From Thermococcus stetteri (GTDB lineage: Archaea > Methanobacteriota_B > Thermococci > Thermococcales > Thermococcaceae), in contig NZ_JAGGKB010000001.1 in NCBI RefSeq assembly GCF_017873335.1, forward strand, positions 434,001-498,000: DNA of 64,000 nt, read 5' to 3'. Position numbers and translations under genes: made by a program. Position 1 is the first letter of the stretch. The number at the start of each line of letters is the position of its first letter. The notes beneath the pieces are model-generated. The model was not told where the DNA came from. It saw nothing but the letters and a program-made list of their open reading frames with translations, and made no database searches. Shown here piece by piece: positions 19,795-63,836 of this stretch.

Positions 19795-21933
19795 TCACCT
19801 TTTCCGCTTCCACATTACCACCAAGGCCGCTACCAGAACCCCCGTCAGGGTGTAGAGGGCAACGTTTTTCCGGCCAGCTTTCTGCCCTTCCTGCATTTCC
19901 GGGGGCTTCGCAGTAAGGATAACAGTTCTATTTCCAACGCCGTAGAGGGTCATGTTCAGCGGCCTCAGAGCACCCCAAGCTTTCCCCTCATAGAACCTAA
20001 CGGAGAAGGGCAGTCCTTCTGGGAGCGGGGCAACCGTGAAGTAATAGCCCGTCGAGGATTTCAGGAGTGGCCTCGGTTCCGCAAGCTCTGGGATGCTACC
20101 GCTGAGCCACAGCGTCCCAGAAACATCACCAACAAGGCTGGCGTTGACCGCTATGAGAGCCGGAACGTCGTTCCCGGAGTAGTAGCGGAGGGGCCTTGGA
20201 GGACTTCTCCTTCCGCCGGAAACGACCGTAACGTTTACCCACGCCGCCGATCTCTCCAGCTTGGGAACCTCGACGACTATCTTTCCGTCTTCCCACGAAA
20301 GGACTTTCGCTTCCTTGCCGCCGATTATAACCTCGCCTCTTTCCCCAAATCCCGCACCACCGATGATTATCTCCTGACCCGGTTGAGCAGTGTAAGGAGT
20401 TATCGAGCCGATAAGCGGCGTTTTCTGCTCCTCCTCGATGTGAAAGACGTAGACGCTGTTCCTTGGGAGGTAGACTGAGGCTTTCCCACCCGACACAGCC
20501 ATTTCCCCACCGTAGAGGGCGTCGCGGTAGTTACCATCGGGCCAGTCTATGGAGAAGGTCAAGTTGACCGCAGGCCCCTTGTTCATGACCACTAAGAGGC
20601 TGTGGTTTCCGAAACTCCTCTCGAAGGCCCAGGTCTCGTATGATGCCGTTAGGGTCTTGAAGTCGCCGAAGGCGAGGGCATCGTTGGTCTTCCTCAGCCG
20701 AGCAAGGGTGCGGATTATTCTGGCCGCCTCGGTGGTGTTGTCGAAGACCATCATCGGCCTGTTGTAGGGGTCGCCCTTTCCGTCCTTGCTAACGAGGTAG
20801 CTCTCGTCGCCGTAATAAACTACCGGAATCCCAGGCAGAGTTAGGGTTAAAGCTAGAGCCATGTGGAAGCGCTGGATTTCGTCCTTCCTATCGCCGGCGT
20901 TTAGGAAGCGGACGAGGTCGTGGCTGTCTAGGAAGTTCACAGCCTTCGTCGGGTAGACGAAGTGGGAGTAGTAATCCTCAAGCTCCTCCGAGAGCTTGTC
21001 AAGGCCGCCGAAGAAGGCGAAGGTCCTCACTATGTCCTCTCTGATTGGAATGCTAAGAACCGGGGAGACGTTCGAGTAACGGTAGAACTCGTAGAGGTCA
21101 TCTCCCATCTGGAAGGAGGGCGTGAAGTACTCGCCGTAGATGAAGAGCGGCCCCTTGGAGTAGAGGCGGAGGTAAAAGGTCTCGAGCCAGCCGAGCCCCA
21201 TGTGCTTGACCGCATCAACCCTGAAGCCGCAGGCGCCGGAGTCAGCGAAGAGCATGGCGCCCTCAGTGAGGTATGAGTCAACCCACGGATTGAGCTGGTT
21301 GAAGTCAGCGAGGCCGTAGAGGTTAGCGTACTTAAGCGGTATCCCGCTCCACGTGAAGATGTTGCCGTTGTGGTGATAGATGTCCTCGCGGATTCCAGTA
21401 ATCGGGTTCATCTTAGCCTTCCCCGCGTCCTTGAAGTAGTCCGTCACGAAGGTGCCATTGTCGTAGAGAGCACCATATTCGCCGTCGTTCACCGGGTTCG
21501 AGTGGTTTGGCACGTAGTCAACGATTACGCAGATTCCCCGCTTTTTAGCTTCCTTAACGAGCCGCCTGAAGTCATCCCAGTTCCCAAAGTGCTCTTCTAT
21601 CCTCTTGTAGTCCCTCGTCCAGTAGCCGTGATAGGGGGCACCCCCGTAGGCGAGGGCATTGATGTTGTCGTTGAGAGGGGATACCCATATCATCGAAACT
21701 CCGAGGCTCTTGATGTAGTCGAGCTTCTCGATGAGGCCTTCTAAATCTCCACCCCAGTAGAGACGGTAGTTGGAATGAGCCAGATCATAGAGAGGTTCGT
21801 TGTTGGAAGGGTTGCCGTCGTAAAAGCGGTCCACCATGACCTGATAAATTACCCCTCTCTCCGGGACTTCCCAGGCAGAAACGAGAGGAGTGAGAATTAG
21901 AACGAGCAACGCTACAAAGACCACTCGCCTCAT
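19795..21933 (-). CDS. Membrane-anchored extracellular GH13 amylase, CGTase-like
   Basis: 712 residues. Signal peptide (1-20), then a GH13 barrel with VDYVPNHS, GFRVDAVKH (nucleophile Asp240), FIYGEYF (Glu268) and FLDSHD (Asp339). Domain C follows, then an IPT/TIG domain (PLIGSITPYTAQPGQEIIIG), a beta-sandwich region and a C-terminal helix ending MWKRKR. The A-B-C-TIG layout is that of cyclodextrin glucanotransferases, and a CGTase is known in related Thermococcus; neopullulanase-like specificity cannot be excluded. It would turn starch into cyclodextrins or maltodextrins for uptake. A perfect glycolytic motif (21936-21952) lies 2 bases before ATG 21933, so repression without sugar is expected. 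Confidence 0.85.
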   Translation of the reverse strand: MRRVVFVALLVLILTPLVSAWEVPERGVIYQVMVDRFYDGNPSNNEPLYDLAHSNYRLYWGGDLEGLIEKLDYIKSLGVSMIWVSPLNDNINALAYGGAPYHGYWTRDYKRIEEHFGNWDDFRRLVKEAKKRGICVIVDYVPNHSNPVNDGEYGALYDNGTFVTDYFKDAGKAKMNPITGIREDIYHHNGNIFTWSGIPLKYANLYGLADFNQLNPWVDSYLTEGAMLFADSGACGFRVDAVKHMGLGWLETFYLRLYSKGPLFIYGEYFTPSFQMGDDLYEFYRYSNVSPVLSIPIREDIVRTFAFFGGLDKLSEELEDYYSHFVYPTKAVNFLDSHDLVRFLNAGDRKDEIQRFHMALALTLTLPGIPVVYYGDESYLVSKDGKGDPYNRPMMVFDNTTEAARIIRTLARLRKTNDALAFGDFKTLTASYETWAFERSFGNHSLLVVMNKGPAVNLTFSIDWPDGNYRDALYGGEMAVSGGKASVYLPRNSVYVFHIEEEQKTPLIGSITPYTAQPGQEIIIGGAGFGERGEVIIGGKEAKVLSWEDGKIVVEVPKLERSAAWVNVTVVSGGRRSPPRPLRYYSGNDVPALIAVNASLVGDVSGTLWLSGSIPELAEPRPLLKSSTGYYFTVAPLPEGLPFSVRFYEGKAWGALRPLNMTLYGVGNRTVILTAKPPEMQEGQKAGRKNVALYTLTGVLVAALVVMWKRKR

Positions 21934-21935
21934 TA

Positions 21936-21952
21936 TATCACCAGAAGTGATA
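21936..21952 (-). promoter_or_regulatory. Thermococcales glycolytic motif at the CGTase-like gene
   Basis: TATCAC-CAGAA-GTGATA on the plus strand is a perfect palindrome of the Tgr/TrmBL1 operator. It lies downstream of the minus-strand TATA GCTTTTAAC (21963-21971), over the expected start site and ribosome site, the position known to give repression under gluconeogenic conditions. Confidence 0.85.
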
Positions 21953-31818: not shown

Positions 31819-31835
31819 TATCATCTACGGTGATA
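31819..31835 (+). promoter_or_regulatory. Thermococcales glycolytic motif upstream of TATA at fbp
   Basis: TATCAT-CTACG-GTGATA differs from the Tgr consensus by one base. It lies just upstream of TATA GTTTTATAAG (31841-31850), so bound Tgr should aid the transcription factors rather than block them, the arrangement known for gluconeogenic genes. Confidence 0.8.
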
Positions 31836-43128: not shown

Positions 43129-43584
43129 ATGAAGAGCTTTTTAACCGAGCAGCAGATTAGGGTTCTCCAGCTGAGGGCCAGAGGCCTGAAGCAGAGCGAG
43201 ATAGCTGAAATTCTTGGAACGAGCAGAGCCAATGTTAGTATTCTTGAGAGGAGGGCCCTTGAAAAGGTGGAAAAAGCCAGGAATACACTTCTCCTGTGGG
43301 AGCAGATAAACTCGAAGATAAGCGTTGATGTTAAAAAAGGTGAGGACATCTTCCAAGTTCCGGAGAAGCTCTTCAGGAAGGCCGACGAGCTTGGAGTGAA
43401 GGTTCCCTACAGCACGGCGGAGATAATAGCGTTTCTGGTGGAGCACGCGCCGATAGAGGACAGGTTGGCCAAGAGGGACTTCACGCTCTTCCTTGACAGA
43501 GAGGACAGACTCCGCGTTAGCGAGTGCATCCTAGAGGACTTTGACGAGATACGGAAGCACGATGGCGGTAAAAACGCCGTTTAG
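43129..43584 (+). CDS. Tfx family DNA-binding protein
   Basis: 151 residues. The N-terminal helix-turn-helix (RVLQLRARGLKQSEIAEILG then TSRANVSILERRA) is that of Tfx, the regulator first seen beside the formylmethanofuran dehydrogenase genes of methanogens. The C-terminal part (KVPYSTAEIIAFLVEHAP) would sense a ligand. The target here is unknown; its neighbours are tRNA-Gly and, convergent with a 54-base overlap, LrgB. ATG 43129 is preferred over 43117 because of GGTG placement. Confidence 0.85.
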   Translation: MKSFLTEQQIRVLQLRARGLKQSEIAEILGTSRANVSILERRALEKVEKARNTLLLWEQINSKISVDVKKGEDIFQVPEKLFRKADELGVKVPYSTAEIIAFLVEHAPIEDRLAKRDFTLFLDREDRLRVSECILEDFDEIRKHDGGKNAV

Positions 43585-44202
43585 AGCCATTGCAAGCCCG
43601 CTGACTCCCCCAGCGAGTTCATCTTCTAGCAGTATCCTCGCCGTCCCGAGACCGTGGGAAGTAACTCCCATTGCCAGTCCCTTCGCTACCCTGTCCCTGA
43701 CCCGGAATACGTTTAAGAGCTCCGATCCGACCGCGTTGCCGAGTATCCCGGTGAGAATAACAAGGACTGCCGTAAGGGCTGGGATTCCGCCGATCTTTTC
43801 GCTGATACCTATTGCTATCGCAGTTGTAACGCTCTTGGGGGCTATGCTCATGAGCACGTCGTGGCTCCCGCCGAGAACCTCTGCCGTGTAAAAAGCGCTG
43901 AGTATCGCAACGGTTCCGCCGACTGTTATTCCCACGGTTGTCTCTTTCCAGTAGACTCTGATGGTATCAAGTTCCTTATAAACGGGAACGGCAAGGCTTA
44001 CCACAGCCGGCCCGAGGAGGAACTTGAGTATTACGGCACTCTCCATGTAGGACTCGTAGGAAAAGCCACCTAACCAGAGAAATGCCGCTATCGTGGCTAT
44101 TGATAGGAGAACTGGGTTTGTGTAAAACGCCCTCTTTCTCGAGTGAAGCTCCGAAAAAAGGTAGAAGACTATAAGCGTTAGGGTTATGCCGTATGGGTTC
44201 AC
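43531..44202 (-). CDS. LrgB/CidB family membrane protein
   Basis: 223 residues with about seven helices. GPAVVSLAVPVYKELD, SIAPKSVTTAIAIGIS and LTGILGNAVGSELL are the standard LrgB blocks. In bacteria LrgA/LrgB act in lysis control and in pyruvate or metabolite export; archaeal roles are unknown, but a by-product exporter would suit a fermenter. Its start overlaps the LrgA stop as ATGA. Confidence 0.88.
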   Translation of the reverse strand: MNPYGITLTLIVFYLFSELHSRKRAFYTNPVLLSIATIAAFLWLGGFSYESYMESAVILKFLLGPAVVSLAVPVYKELDTIRVYWKETTVGITVGGTVAILSAFYTAEVLGGSHDVLMSIAPKSVTTAIAIGISEKIGGIPALTAVLVILTGILGNAVGSELLNVFRVRDRVAKGLAMGVTSHGLGTARILLEDELAGGVSGLAMALNGVFTAIVLPYLVKVL

Positions 44203-44546
44203 TTTCTCCCCCTCCTAAGGACTTCCACGACTTTAGCAGTTGTAACAAGGGTTACCAGAAAGCTCACCAGGAGGGCTAAGGAAACCGGAACAACCTGACT
44301 CTTTAGGAGACCTACATACAAAACTATCCCAACCCCCGGAGGAACAAACATCACGCTCATGTTCCTGACGAAGAGCTCCGCCTCGTTCTCAACCCACTCA
44401 AGCCGGATAAGTCCCATCACCAAGGCCCCAAGCAGAAACAGCATGCCGAGGACGCTTCCAGGGATCGAGAGGGCAAAGGCCGAACTCACTAGCTCACCTA
44501 GGGCGTAGAAGCCGAATATTATGGCGAGACCCCGATAGGCATTCAT
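44199..44546 (-). CDS. LrgA/CidA family membrane protein
   Basis: 115 residues, four helices, with FALSIPGSVLGMLFLLGAL and FVRNMSVMFVPPGVGIVLY as in CidA/LrgA proteins, which form holin-like complexes with LrgB. It is the first gene of a two-gene operon with the LrgB gene and is divergent from the DUF2139 gene. Confidence 0.88.
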   Translation of the reverse strand: MNAYRGLAIIFGFYALGELVSSAFALSIPGSVLGMLFLLGALVMGLIRLEWVENEAELFVRNMSVMFVPPGVGIVLYVGLLKSQVVPVSLALLVSFLVTLVTTAKVVEVLRRGRK

Positions 44547-44606
44547 GTCCAGATTTTCACCATTTCCCTATAAAAGACCTCCAAAAAATCAATAAGCAAT
44601 CGATCC

Positions 44607-44623
44607 TATCACCAGCGGTGATA
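44607..44623 (+). promoter_or_regulatory. Perfect glycolytic motif at the DUF2139 gene
   Basis: TATCAC-CAGCG-GTGATA is a perfect Tgr/TrmBL1 site 2 bases before ATG 44626. The TATA (CCCTATAAAAG) is near 44567-44576, so the site covers the start of transcription and the ribosome site, the repressing layout seen at the CGTase-like gene. Confidence 0.85.
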
Positions 44624-44625
44624 CC

Positions 44626-46080
44626 ATGTTCCTCCGGAACTACCGCTTCCCGGGAAGGTACGGCCCCGAGTGGGGCAGCGGTGGGATATTCGGGCTCAGG
44701 TACCACAACGGGACCCTTTACTTCACGCTGGCCTTTGAGGCCGAGGCACACTTCATAGATATTAAGAGCCATGAGGAGGAGACCTACGACTTCACCCTCG
44801 TCGGAAACGCCCCAACTAGCGGAGGCGACACCTACAACGCGGTCGAGACGGTCGATGAGTTCATATACTTCGGCGGCTGGGTGCACGCGCCAGCTGTTTA
44901 CCGCGAGGACAGGAGGATACTCTTCAACAACAAGTACTCCCACGTCCATGCCTACGACACGGAGGAAAGAGCGGTCAAGCTCCTTTGGAAGGAGTCGATC
45001 CACCACGAAACCGACTGGGCGGGGGAGATAAGCGACATAATCTACGACCCTTACAACGACAGGCTTCTGCTCGCGAGAGAGGACGGCCACAGGAACCTTG
45101 GAGTCTATTCCCTCGATAGGGAAACCGGAAACGCGGAACCCCTCATAGGGGACCCCTCCCCCAAGGGAACGCGCGTCCACGATGTTGCGTTCTTTGGTGT
45201 GGGAAACAACTTCACTGGAGGACTCAGGGAGTTCAAAGCACTCGACCTGATAAGCGGAAGGTGGGAGGCCTTTAAACCCGGGGAGAGCGTAGATGGAAAG
45301 CCCTATGAGAGGCCGGAGCTTGGCTCTATGAGCTCAGCCTACAACCGGGCCTTCGCCTTCGTGCGCGGTGGAATCTTCGCTGGCAACCCGTACATGGGTG
45401 AGGGGTTTACCTTCTACCGCCTCTTTGACTTCCCGACGTTCTATGCTCCCTTCCGCGTGAACGCGGTAAACGTTGGCGGAGGGATCCTAACGGCATTCAA
45501 CGCCCACCACGATGCATCGTACAGGGGGGACTCCCAGGATAGTGGGCTCTTCTGGGACTTCACGAACACCATAGCGGGACCGAGCGTTCTCGTTTACCTC
45601 GCCCCACCGGTGGTGAAAATAGTCGGAGCATTCGGGGCGAGGATAACGAGTATAGAGAAGATGGACGGAAAGATTCTGGTGGCTACCAACAGCGCACCCA
45701 ACACGGGTTCAACGGAGGCAACTCCCTTCGACACCGGGAACAGGGACATAGTCATCCTCGACGAGAGGATAATCCAGGAGAGACCGCCTTCAGTTAGCTT
45801 CACCGTTCCCCTGGAGCTCTTGAGAAAGGCAAACAAGCGGACCTTCGGCGGGATTCCCCTCGACGGCTACCTCGAGGCAAGGGCTGTTTTCCACTTAAAA
45901 GGCGACACGAAGCTGAAAATCCACGAGTACGAACTCTCCCTGCCGGGGGCTGAAGCGGAAGAGGAAACCTTCGACTTGAAGAGAGGGAAAAACGTGATAG
46001 ACCTCAGGACCTTTTCCGGAATCGTAAGCTTAGAGCTGAAAAAAGTTGTGGGGGGAAAGGCAAGGATAGAGCTCCTTTAG
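44626..46080 (+). CDS. DUF2139 protein under the sugar regulon operator
   Basis: 484 residues, no signal peptide. Repeated strands (GGIFGLRYHNGTLYFTLAFE, VETVDEFIYFGGWVHAP, YDPYNDRLLLAREDGHRNLG) form a beta-propeller-like fold; HAPAVYRED and HETDWAGEISD supply conserved-looking acids and histidines. It matches the archaeal DUF2139 family, of unknown role. The perfect Tgr operator links it to glycolysis or sugar-polymer use. ATG 44626 follows GGTGATACC. It could be a cytoplasmic sugar-processing enzyme or a lectin-like protein; the sequence does not decide. Confidence 0.8.
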   Translation: MFLRNYRFPGRYGPEWGSGGIFGLRYHNGTLYFTLAFEAEAHFIDIKSHEEETYDFTLVGNAPTSGGDTYNAVETVDEFIYFGGWVHAPAVYREDRRILFNNKYSHVHAYDTEERAVKLLWKESIHHETDWAGEISDIIYDPYNDRLLLAREDGHRNLGVYSLDRETGNAEPLIGDPSPKGTRVHDVAFFGVGNNFTGGLREFKALDLISGRWEAFKPGESVDGKPYERPELGSMSSAYNRAFAFVRGGIFAGNPYMGEGFTFYRLFDFPTFYAPFRVNAVNVGGGILTAFNAHHDASYRGDSQDSGLFWDFTNTIAGPSVLVYLAPPVVKIVGAFGARITSIEKMDGKILVATNSAPNTGSTEATPFDTGNRDIVILDERIIQERPPSVSFTVPLELLRKANKRTFGGIPLDGYLEARAVFHLKGDTKLKIHEYELSLPGAEAEEETFDLKRGKNVIDLRTFSGIVSLELKKVVGGKARIELL

Positions 46081-46398: not shown

Positions 46399-48171
46399 TC
46401 ACTTCTCCCTCAGGCCGAAGTAGTCCTCAATGTCGATGTAGGTCTTCCGGTAGAGTTCGCTGTTCCTCATCTTCTCGACGAACTCCTTTGAGCGGAAGTA
46501 CTTGTCCTTCTTGTAATCCCAGTCCGGGTGAAGGGCCTTCCACTCCTCCCAGGTGTAGCTGAACTGAGCCTGAACCTTGTCCCTGTAGAGCTCCGGAATG
46601 ACGTTGAATGTACAGAACGGAACGATCCTTCCGTCGGGCATCGCGTAGTGGATGACGCAGCGCTCGACTCTCTCGACGTCGTAGTTGTACTCGTCCATGA
46701 AGTGCATCATGCCGACGAAGAGGGCATTTTCGTGGAACTTTCCGAGGGCGTAGTAGTTGCCGTGCATGAAGGCGTTCTTTATTAGGTCGAGGACTTTGAG
46801 TCCCTTCGGAGCGTACTTGTCGTCGTAGAAGCTCCTGAACTTCATGAATATCTCCGCTCCAAGCTTGAGCTTCTGGAGCTTTCCGAGCTTCTTCCACTGC
46901 TCTATCTCCTCGGCCTTGCTCTCGAGGTACTCAACGAAGCCCTCAACATCGAGGAACCTCGGGATCGGGACGACGCGCTTGTTTTCCTTGTCGAGGAAGA
47001 CGTAGGTAGCGGCACCGCAGGCGAAGTGGCTGGTCATGTAGTAGCGTGAGCCGGTGAAGGCCTCAAAAAAGCGAGCTATGTGGCCCGCTATCGGTATCGG
47101 GTACCAATCGTACCTGCTTATGGCACCGTTGGTCTGCTCCTCTATCCTCTTGATAGCGCCTGGTATCGTTATCCTGAACCTCTGGCGCTCCTTCTTTGGC
47201 ACCCTTCCTACCTGGGAGATCGGCTGGAAGTTGACTCCCCTGACGATGTCAAGGTGGTTGAGGCCGAAGTTGATTATCGCGCCGAGCTCGTGGTCGTTGA
47301 CGTTCCTTATCGTGGTCGGCACGAGGACTATTCCAGGCCCGCCGGCCTTCCTCACGTTCTCAAATATCAGCGGGATCTCCCAGTGGTTCTTCCAGTTGGT
47401 CTGTGGGGTCATTCCGTCGTAGCTAAGGTAGAGGGTGTTCGTTCCGGCCTCCCTGATCTTCTTGACGAGCTCGGGGTCAAAGGCCAGCTTTATTCCATCG
47501 GTGTTGAGCTGGACGTGGTCGTAGCCCTCCTCCTTCGCCATCTTGAGAATCTCTATGAGGTCTTCCCTGAGGGTTGGCTCTCCACCGGTGAACTGCACTG
47601 CGTTGGCACCAATCGGGTGCTCCTTCTTGGCGTTCCTGAGCATCATCCTTATCTGTTCAAGGGTCGGCTCGTATATGGGCTGGCCTTCGCGGGCGTAGAA
47701 GAAGCAGTACCAGCAGCTCAGGTTGCAGCGGTTGGTAAGCACTATGTTAAGCAGGCTTGTATGGGAGCGGTGCCTTGGACAGAGGCCGCAGTCAAGCGGA
47801 CAGTTCACTCCGCTGTTCTGGACGTTTGCGCTGAAGAGCTCCTTTTCGTCCCACTTCCACCTCTTAGAACGGTAGTACAGCTCCACATCTTCATAGTAGA
47901 GATCGGTTATCATGCCCTCGGGACACTTCTTGGTTATCCAGACCTTGCCGTCCTTCTCCCATACAAGGGCGGGAACAACCCTTCTCGTCTCAGGACAGAG
48001 GGAATAGGTCCTGTGAGGTAAATCAGCGCCATAAGCACGGCTCGCCTTCTTTAGGAGCTCATAAAATTCCTCCTCAGTGATCTCCGGGAACTCAACGATG
48101 TCCCTGATGTGTTTGGTAGATTCAGCAAACTCCTTTTCGCCGCTTGGAATTTCACCGATGCTCTCGGCCAT
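46399..48171 (-). CDS. tes: Tetraether lipid synthase (radical SAM, Tes)
   Basis: 590 residues. The radical-SAM motif CNLSCWYC (Cys149, 153, 156) sits in TNRCNLSCWYCFFYA; before it NCPLDCGLCPRH (Cys124, 128, 131) supplies an auxiliary cluster, with further Cys59 and Cys83. These blocks and the length are those of the MJ0619/Tes family, which couples two phytanyl chains to make tetraether membrane lipids (GDGTs). A C-terminal HYAMPDGRIVPFCTFNVIPE follows. Membrane-spanning lipids are central to heat tolerance. Confidence 0.88.
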   Translation of the reverse strand: MAESIGEIPSGEKEFAESTKHIRDIVEFPEITEEEFYELLKKASRAYGADLPHRTYSLCPETRRVVPALVWEKDGKVWITKKCPEGMITDLYYEDVELYYRSKRWKWDEKELFSANVQNSGVNCPLDCGLCPRHRSHTSLLNIVLTNRCNLSCWYCFFYAREGQPIYEPTLEQIRMMLRNAKKEHPIGANAVQFTGGEPTLREDLIEILKMAKEEGYDHVQLNTDGIKLAFDPELVKKIREAGTNTLYLSYDGMTPQTNWKNHWEIPLIFENVRKAGGPGIVLVPTTIRNVNDHELGAIINFGLNHLDIVRGVNFQPISQVGRVPKKERQRFRITIPGAIKRIEEQTNGAISRYDWYPIPIAGHIARFFEAFTGSRYYMTSHFACGAATYVFLDKENKRVVPIPRFLDVEGFVEYLESKAEEIEQWKKLGKLQKLKLGAEIFMKFRSFYDDKYAPKGLKVLDLIKNAFMHGNYYALGKFHENALFVGMMHFMDEYNYDVERVERCVIHYAMPDGRIVPFCTFNVIPELYRDKVQAQFSYTWEEWKALHPDWDYKKDKYFRSKEFVEKMRNSELYRKTYIDIEDYFGLREK

Positions 48172-62625: not shown

Positions 62626-63836
<1,211 letters not shown>

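Follow-up and report, generated by a model that had tools for sequence, protein, structure and literature searches.

Our analysis indicates that the DUF2139 gene of Thermococcus stetteri is a new member of the already known TrmBL1/Tgr regulon, as judged from its operator, its promoter and its genome context. Within the window (the whole stretch of 64,000 nucleotides that was analyzed), the gene (PF09910; 44626–46080, forward strand, ATG start) encodes a protein of 484 amino acids, and TATCACCAGCGGTGATA at 44607–44623 on the same strand matches TATCAC-N5-GTGATA, the Thermococcales glycolytic motif (TGM), with 0 mismatches. This element, TATCAC-CAGCG-GTGATA, ends 2 nt 5′ of the ATG (44626), agrees with the 17-base core of the TrmBL1 ChIP-seq consensus as well (consensus from PMC4706686), and lies over the expected transcription start, a repressor-type position. 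A probable BRE (CCAAAAAA) and TATA box (TCAATAAG) were read from the sequence at 44581–44596 (forward strand), giving the putative promoter order CCAAAAAA-TCAATAAG, 10 nt, operator, CC, ATG, and DUF2139 orthologues of the genus have a conserved promoter of the form CGAAAG-GCAATAAG at an equal distance. The Shine-Dalgarno sequence, GGTGAT (44617–44622, forward strand), is contained in the right half of the operator, GGTGATA. We regard the site as a genuine glycolytic-type operator in a predicted repressor position.

The same geometry was seen at two other genes in the window, both on the reverse strand. At the CGTase-like gene (19795–21933), a perfect TGM (21936–21952, reverse strand) stands 2 nt before the ATG, and the promoter reads CAAAG-CTTTTAAC, 10 nt, operator, TA, ATG. 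The triosephosphate isomerase (TPI) gene (62626–63306), a known TrmBL1 target (PMC4706686) that served for comparison, has TAACAC-N5-GTGATA (63310–63326, reverse strand) in the order CGAAAG-ACGTTTAAG, 11 nt, operator, CCC, ATG. A further element of the window (31819–31835, forward strand) was listed among the comparison operators. Unlike DUF2139, the window's FBPase gene has its operator immediately 5′ of the TATA box, at a distance of ∼6 nt, which is the activator-type order. TrmBL1 represses from sites downstream of the BRE/TATA and activates from upstream sites, and its binding in vivo is confined to gluconeogenic conditions (PMC4706686, PMC4158304). A TrmBL1/Tgr-type regulator gene (341 aa; Regulator_TrmB, 197.6 bits) is present in the genome, divergent from mdxE. 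An earlier note on this DNA had claimed a perfect TATCAC-CAGCG-GTGATA at the DUF2139 start, a glycolytic-type operator at the right place and a layout like that of the CGTase-like gene, all of which were borne out by the sequence and the spacing given above; its choice of the Tgr/TrmBL1 regulon as the framework is backed by the regulator gene adjoining mdxE. Compared with the regulon of TrmBL1 (PF0124) and Tgr (TK1769), DUF2139 is the same in operator sequence, spacing and position over the start, and the genome is alike in having the regulator gene beside the maltodextrin operon and sites at other members; it is unlike in that DUF2139 is a target of uncharacterised function whose membership is lineage-specific. 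We found no mention of DUF2139 in the literature searched.

Because the right half of the operator contains the Shine-Dalgarno sequence, the 12 matches of the whole operator cannot be counted as independent of translation signals. Indeed, GTGATA-NN-ATG occurs 44 times genome-wide as compared to 4 times for the reversed control pattern, which makes the right half a cheap match. At a start of this kind, the probability of a perfect TATCAC left half is 2.1×10−4 per gene, which amounts to 0.009 expected over the 44 genes, and two were observed, at DUF2139 and at the CGTase-like gene; a third start, that of a GH57-like gene, has the left half with one mismatch. In the whole genome there were 5 perfect TGM sites (0.09 expected) and 16 with no more than one mismatch (0 for the reversed control). 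The DUF2139 site thus exceeds chance, but by a smaller margin than the earlier note implied in calling a 12 of 12 match unlikely by chance, a statement that was right in substance and overstated in size. Almost all sites with no more than one mismatch lie at genes for starch breakdown, maltodextrin uptake, glycolysis or gluconeogenesis (some of the genes at operator sites were named by reading their proteins; the CGTase-like gene and FBPase were checked against Pfam). One-mismatch operators were also seen upstream of a ferritin-like gene (L098:2498–3123) and in or near an ORF of 520 aa (L094:2510–2526), both of which are possible unlisted members of the regulon.

DUF2139 (PF09910) was present in 79 of 94 genomes of Thermococcales, and conservation was assessed in 48 single-copy orthologues from the genus of the window. 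Both operator halves were kept at exactly −19 in 23 of these: in 19 the left half had at most one mismatch and the right half was perfect in all 19, and in four more the left half had two mismatches with CAC intact, again beside a perfect right half. In many relatives the left half is fixed at −19 while the spacer varies. The left half was absent at DUF2139 in all other genera compared, so that the motif, whose retention upstream of DUF2139 orthologues had been proposed as a check, is kept in about half of one genus and not beyond it. Among the 45 orthologues placed on the tree, the GTGATA right half accompanied the left half in 22/22 cases and was found in 6/23 lacking it (Fisher 1.2×10−7, a value that counts orthologues that are related to each other). 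At least 10 state changes are needed to explain gain and loss of the operator on the tree, and four independent pairs on well-supported branches pointed in the same direction in nearly all pairings, a number too small for significance. As a negative control, the upstream regions of six neighboring gene families contained no site within two mismatches (0/223) as compared to 25/52 for DUF2139; as a positive control, 28/30 TPI upstream regions did, 26 of them reading TAACAC-N5-GTGATA. This TAACAC variant is also found in most operator-bearing DUF2139 orthologues, and in the G026/G039 clade, where the TPI operator has drifted to ATTCAC, the DUF2139 site is ATTCAA-N5-GTGATA. Since about half of the genus has the operator and no other genus does, DUF2139 is a labile member of the regulon, and we consider this membership, as predicted from the motif, to be real.

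Several observations were made alongside. The TPI operator (L103–L132) reads TAACAC-N5-GTGATA rather than TATCAC across nearly the whole genus, besides the clade-specific ATTCAC form, which means that regular sites escape the published consensus. In G001:C12, G029:C1, G083:C16 and G088:C235 the DUF2139 gene is broken into two frames or interrupted by stop codons, and several complete genomes of the window's genus do not have the gene at all. Beside DUF2139 and DUF3213 lies the gene for the tetraether lipid synthase Tes (46399–48171; NF045702, 701 bits), an arrangement that is conserved over most of the genus. In three other genera (L007, L012, L029) DUF2139 follows the 23S rRNA gene and has DUF366 downstream, with a HAD phosphatase between in two of them.

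A second line of evidence comes from relatives in which DUF2139 belongs to sugar operons. In G058 and G067 (L040, L054), L082 and L083, the gene order ends in permease, permease, hydrolase, PfkB, DUF2139; G087 and G092 have SBP, permeases, hydrolase, DUF2139, PfkB; and in G086 a DUF2139-PfkB pair is divergent from SBP, permeases, TreT, TrmB and a fucose-isomerase-like gene. Operons of this kind were seen repeatedly, in two genera and with two different gene orders, and Pfam matches in these loci were SBP_bac_1, BPD_transp_1, ABC_tran with OB_MalK, Regulator_TrmB, Fucose_iso_C, PfkB and TreT_GT1. The operon hydrolase resembles GH5_18 and beta-mannosidase structures, and the PfkB kinase resembles PH1459 and fructokinases. 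Each of the sugar-operon promoter regions examined (7/7) has two perfect TACT-N3-AGTA sites, this being the TrmB operator at the TM operon (PMC4158304, PMC10667668). One of the two sites in G086 overlaps the TATA box of DUF2139-PfkB; we give it weight only in combination with its paired site and the operon, because a scan for TrmB sites at single DUF2139 genes gave 1/82 (0.3 expected). The DUF2139 genes of G086, G087, G092, G058 and G067 thus resemble the TM-operon regulon in lying in or beside TrmB-operator-controlled operons with TreT and TrmB, whereas the DUF2139 operons add the GH5_18-like hydrolase, PfkB and the fucose-isomerase-like gene, and the window's gene has no TACT-N3-AGTA within 150 bp. 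Neither the operon hydrolase nor an orthologue of the operon PfkB was found in the window's genome, and 9 of 17 copies of the hydrolase locus had no adjacent DUF2139. At L040:1063–13042 and L054:2600–14700, the sugar locus (fucose-isomerase-like gene, MalK, TrmB, SBP, permeases, hydrolase, PfkB) occupies the usual DUF2139 site and is flanked on both sides by a DUF2139 copy, as though that gene had been its route of entry. The two regulators, together with operon membership, link DUF2139 to sugars, and the family appears to have been connected, depending on the lineage, to two TrmB-family regulators that sense sugars. The suggestion that the protein helps in sugar or polysaccharide use is supported by these operons as to sugars and was left unsupported as to polysaccharides, the protein looking cytosolic.

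That impression comes from the protein sequence, in which no signal-peptide-like N-terminus, strongly hydrophobic segment or cysteine was found. The protein is a full match to PF09910 (504.7 bits as compared to a curated cut-off of 25.9), a family that is itself uncharacterised and whose Pfam model stops short of a conserved C-terminal beta region (∼390–484) following the predicted beta-propeller (∼1–385). There was no Pfam match except DUF2139 and none to NCBIfam or to PDB sequences, a PDB profile search returned nothing up to E = 10, profile self-comparison gave no significant blade repeats, and the viral contigs searched held no relative. AlphaFold2 models were of low confidence because only five sequences were in the alignment; that of the full protein (pLDDT 51, pTM 0.49) was set aside as a guide to function, and the propeller part alone (pTM 0.59, pLDDT 51) matched seven-bladed propellers such as YncE (Z ∼20 over 286 residues). 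The likeness to E. coli YncE is one of fold only, with 8% identity to a DUF2139 model of low confidence (pLDDT 51). Because the matches are generic propellers, a beta-propeller fold is likely and its chemistry is not indicated. Nearly invariant residues (E15, E38, H42, D68, H87, K103, H106, H108, E134, R151, D153, H185, D186, and R247), many of them charged or histidine, suggest that the protein has an active site instead of being a mere scaffold. TK2147, guessed from its neighbors to be the T. kodakarensis orthologue, was dropped, as it is annotated as a chemotaxis protein (PMC8155482).

The motif could be nothing but a Shine-Dalgarno sequence (GGTGATA) that happens to be preceded by a matching left half, since the right half is a Shine-Dalgarno sequence, GTGATA-NN-ATG is found at 44 starts, and only about half of the orthologues have the left half. 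We find this highly improbable when only 0.009 perfect left halves are expected over these 44 genes, when the left half recurs at exactly −19 in many relatives with a varying spacer and a co-occurring GTGATA, and when none of the 223 neighbor upstream regions has such a site. It is also very unlikely that a true operator here mainly serves, as an upstream activator site, the divergent genes lrgA (44199–44546, reverse strand; PF03788) and lrgB, the second of the pair (43531–44202, reverse strand; TIGR00659, PF04172), whose products we take from their family to be possible pyruvate, glycolate or glycerate carriers. The 79-bp intergenic region (44547–44625) is common to lrgA and DUF2139, and the operator was found in 20/35 genomes with an adjacent lrgA as compared to 3/13 without (Fisher 0.05); however, it lies ∼30 nt from the lrgA TATA box as compared to ∼6 nt at FBPase, and it keeps a constant distance from the DUF2139 ATG. 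Moreover, the operator persists in L063, L072 and L065 without an adjacent lrgA, which ties it to DUF2139 and led us to reject the motif as mainly that of lrgAB. As a separate matter, an operator in this divergent region could touch lrgA control as well.

An operator alone is not proof of a sugar gene, because TrmBL1 of P. furiosus also binds at the genes for pyrolysin, membrane dipeptidase and MTA phosphorylase (PMC4706686). DUF2139 might accordingly be controlled by TrmBL1 and yet be no sugar enzyme, but a regulatory or scaffold propeller or part of some other process switched by carbon source; the fold matches are without exception to generic propellers, of which many act as scaffolds, and in other genera the gene follows a 23S rRNA gene or precedes a HAD phosphatase and DUF366. 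This reading, too, we consider unlikely, as it leaves aside the operons with sugar import, a glycosidase and a sugar kinase in two genera, two orders and under another sugar regulator, as well as the many nearly invariant charged and histidine residues suggestive of an active site.

We prefer the reading in which DUF2139 is repressed by TrmBL1/Tgr as long as sugar is absent and derepressed when sugar is present, and we consider this reading quite probable. From the operator, promoter geometry, regulator gene, conservation and genome context observed here, we infer that the regulator binds and represses, that sugar induces the gene and that the protein acts as an enzyme. In cells growing on peptides or pyruvate, TrmBL1/Tgr would sit over the transcription start and Shine-Dalgarno sequence of DUF2139 and deny access to RNA polymerase; an inducer such as maltotriose, maltose or a similar compound would release it from the operator, and DUF2139 would then be made alongside the regulon's other enzymes, those for starch degradation, maltodextrin uptake and glycolysis. 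The product, probably a cytosolic beta-propeller with a part in sugar use, would handle sugars brought into the cell, most likely as an enzyme whose substrate is a hexose, a hexose phosphate or a small glucoside. The interpretation of the earlier note was right in direction, its statistic aside, and its expectation that the protein would be made with sugars agrees with the repressor-type placement of the operator. More tentatively, at somewhat less than even chances, DUF2139 may be the founding family of cytosolic beta-propeller sugar-catabolism enzymes in Thermococcales, placed under TrmBL1 (TGM) or TrmB (TACT-N3-AGTA) according to lineage.

These findings would provide a first functional lead for DUF2139, a family found in 79 of 94 Thermococcales genomes and on at least one Thermoproteota contig, and the lead can be put to a direct test, since the regulator and the sugars are known and the operators are defined. 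They also point to regulon membership being repeatedly gained or lost inside one archaeal genus, and to a single gene family that appears tied to two sister sugar regulators.
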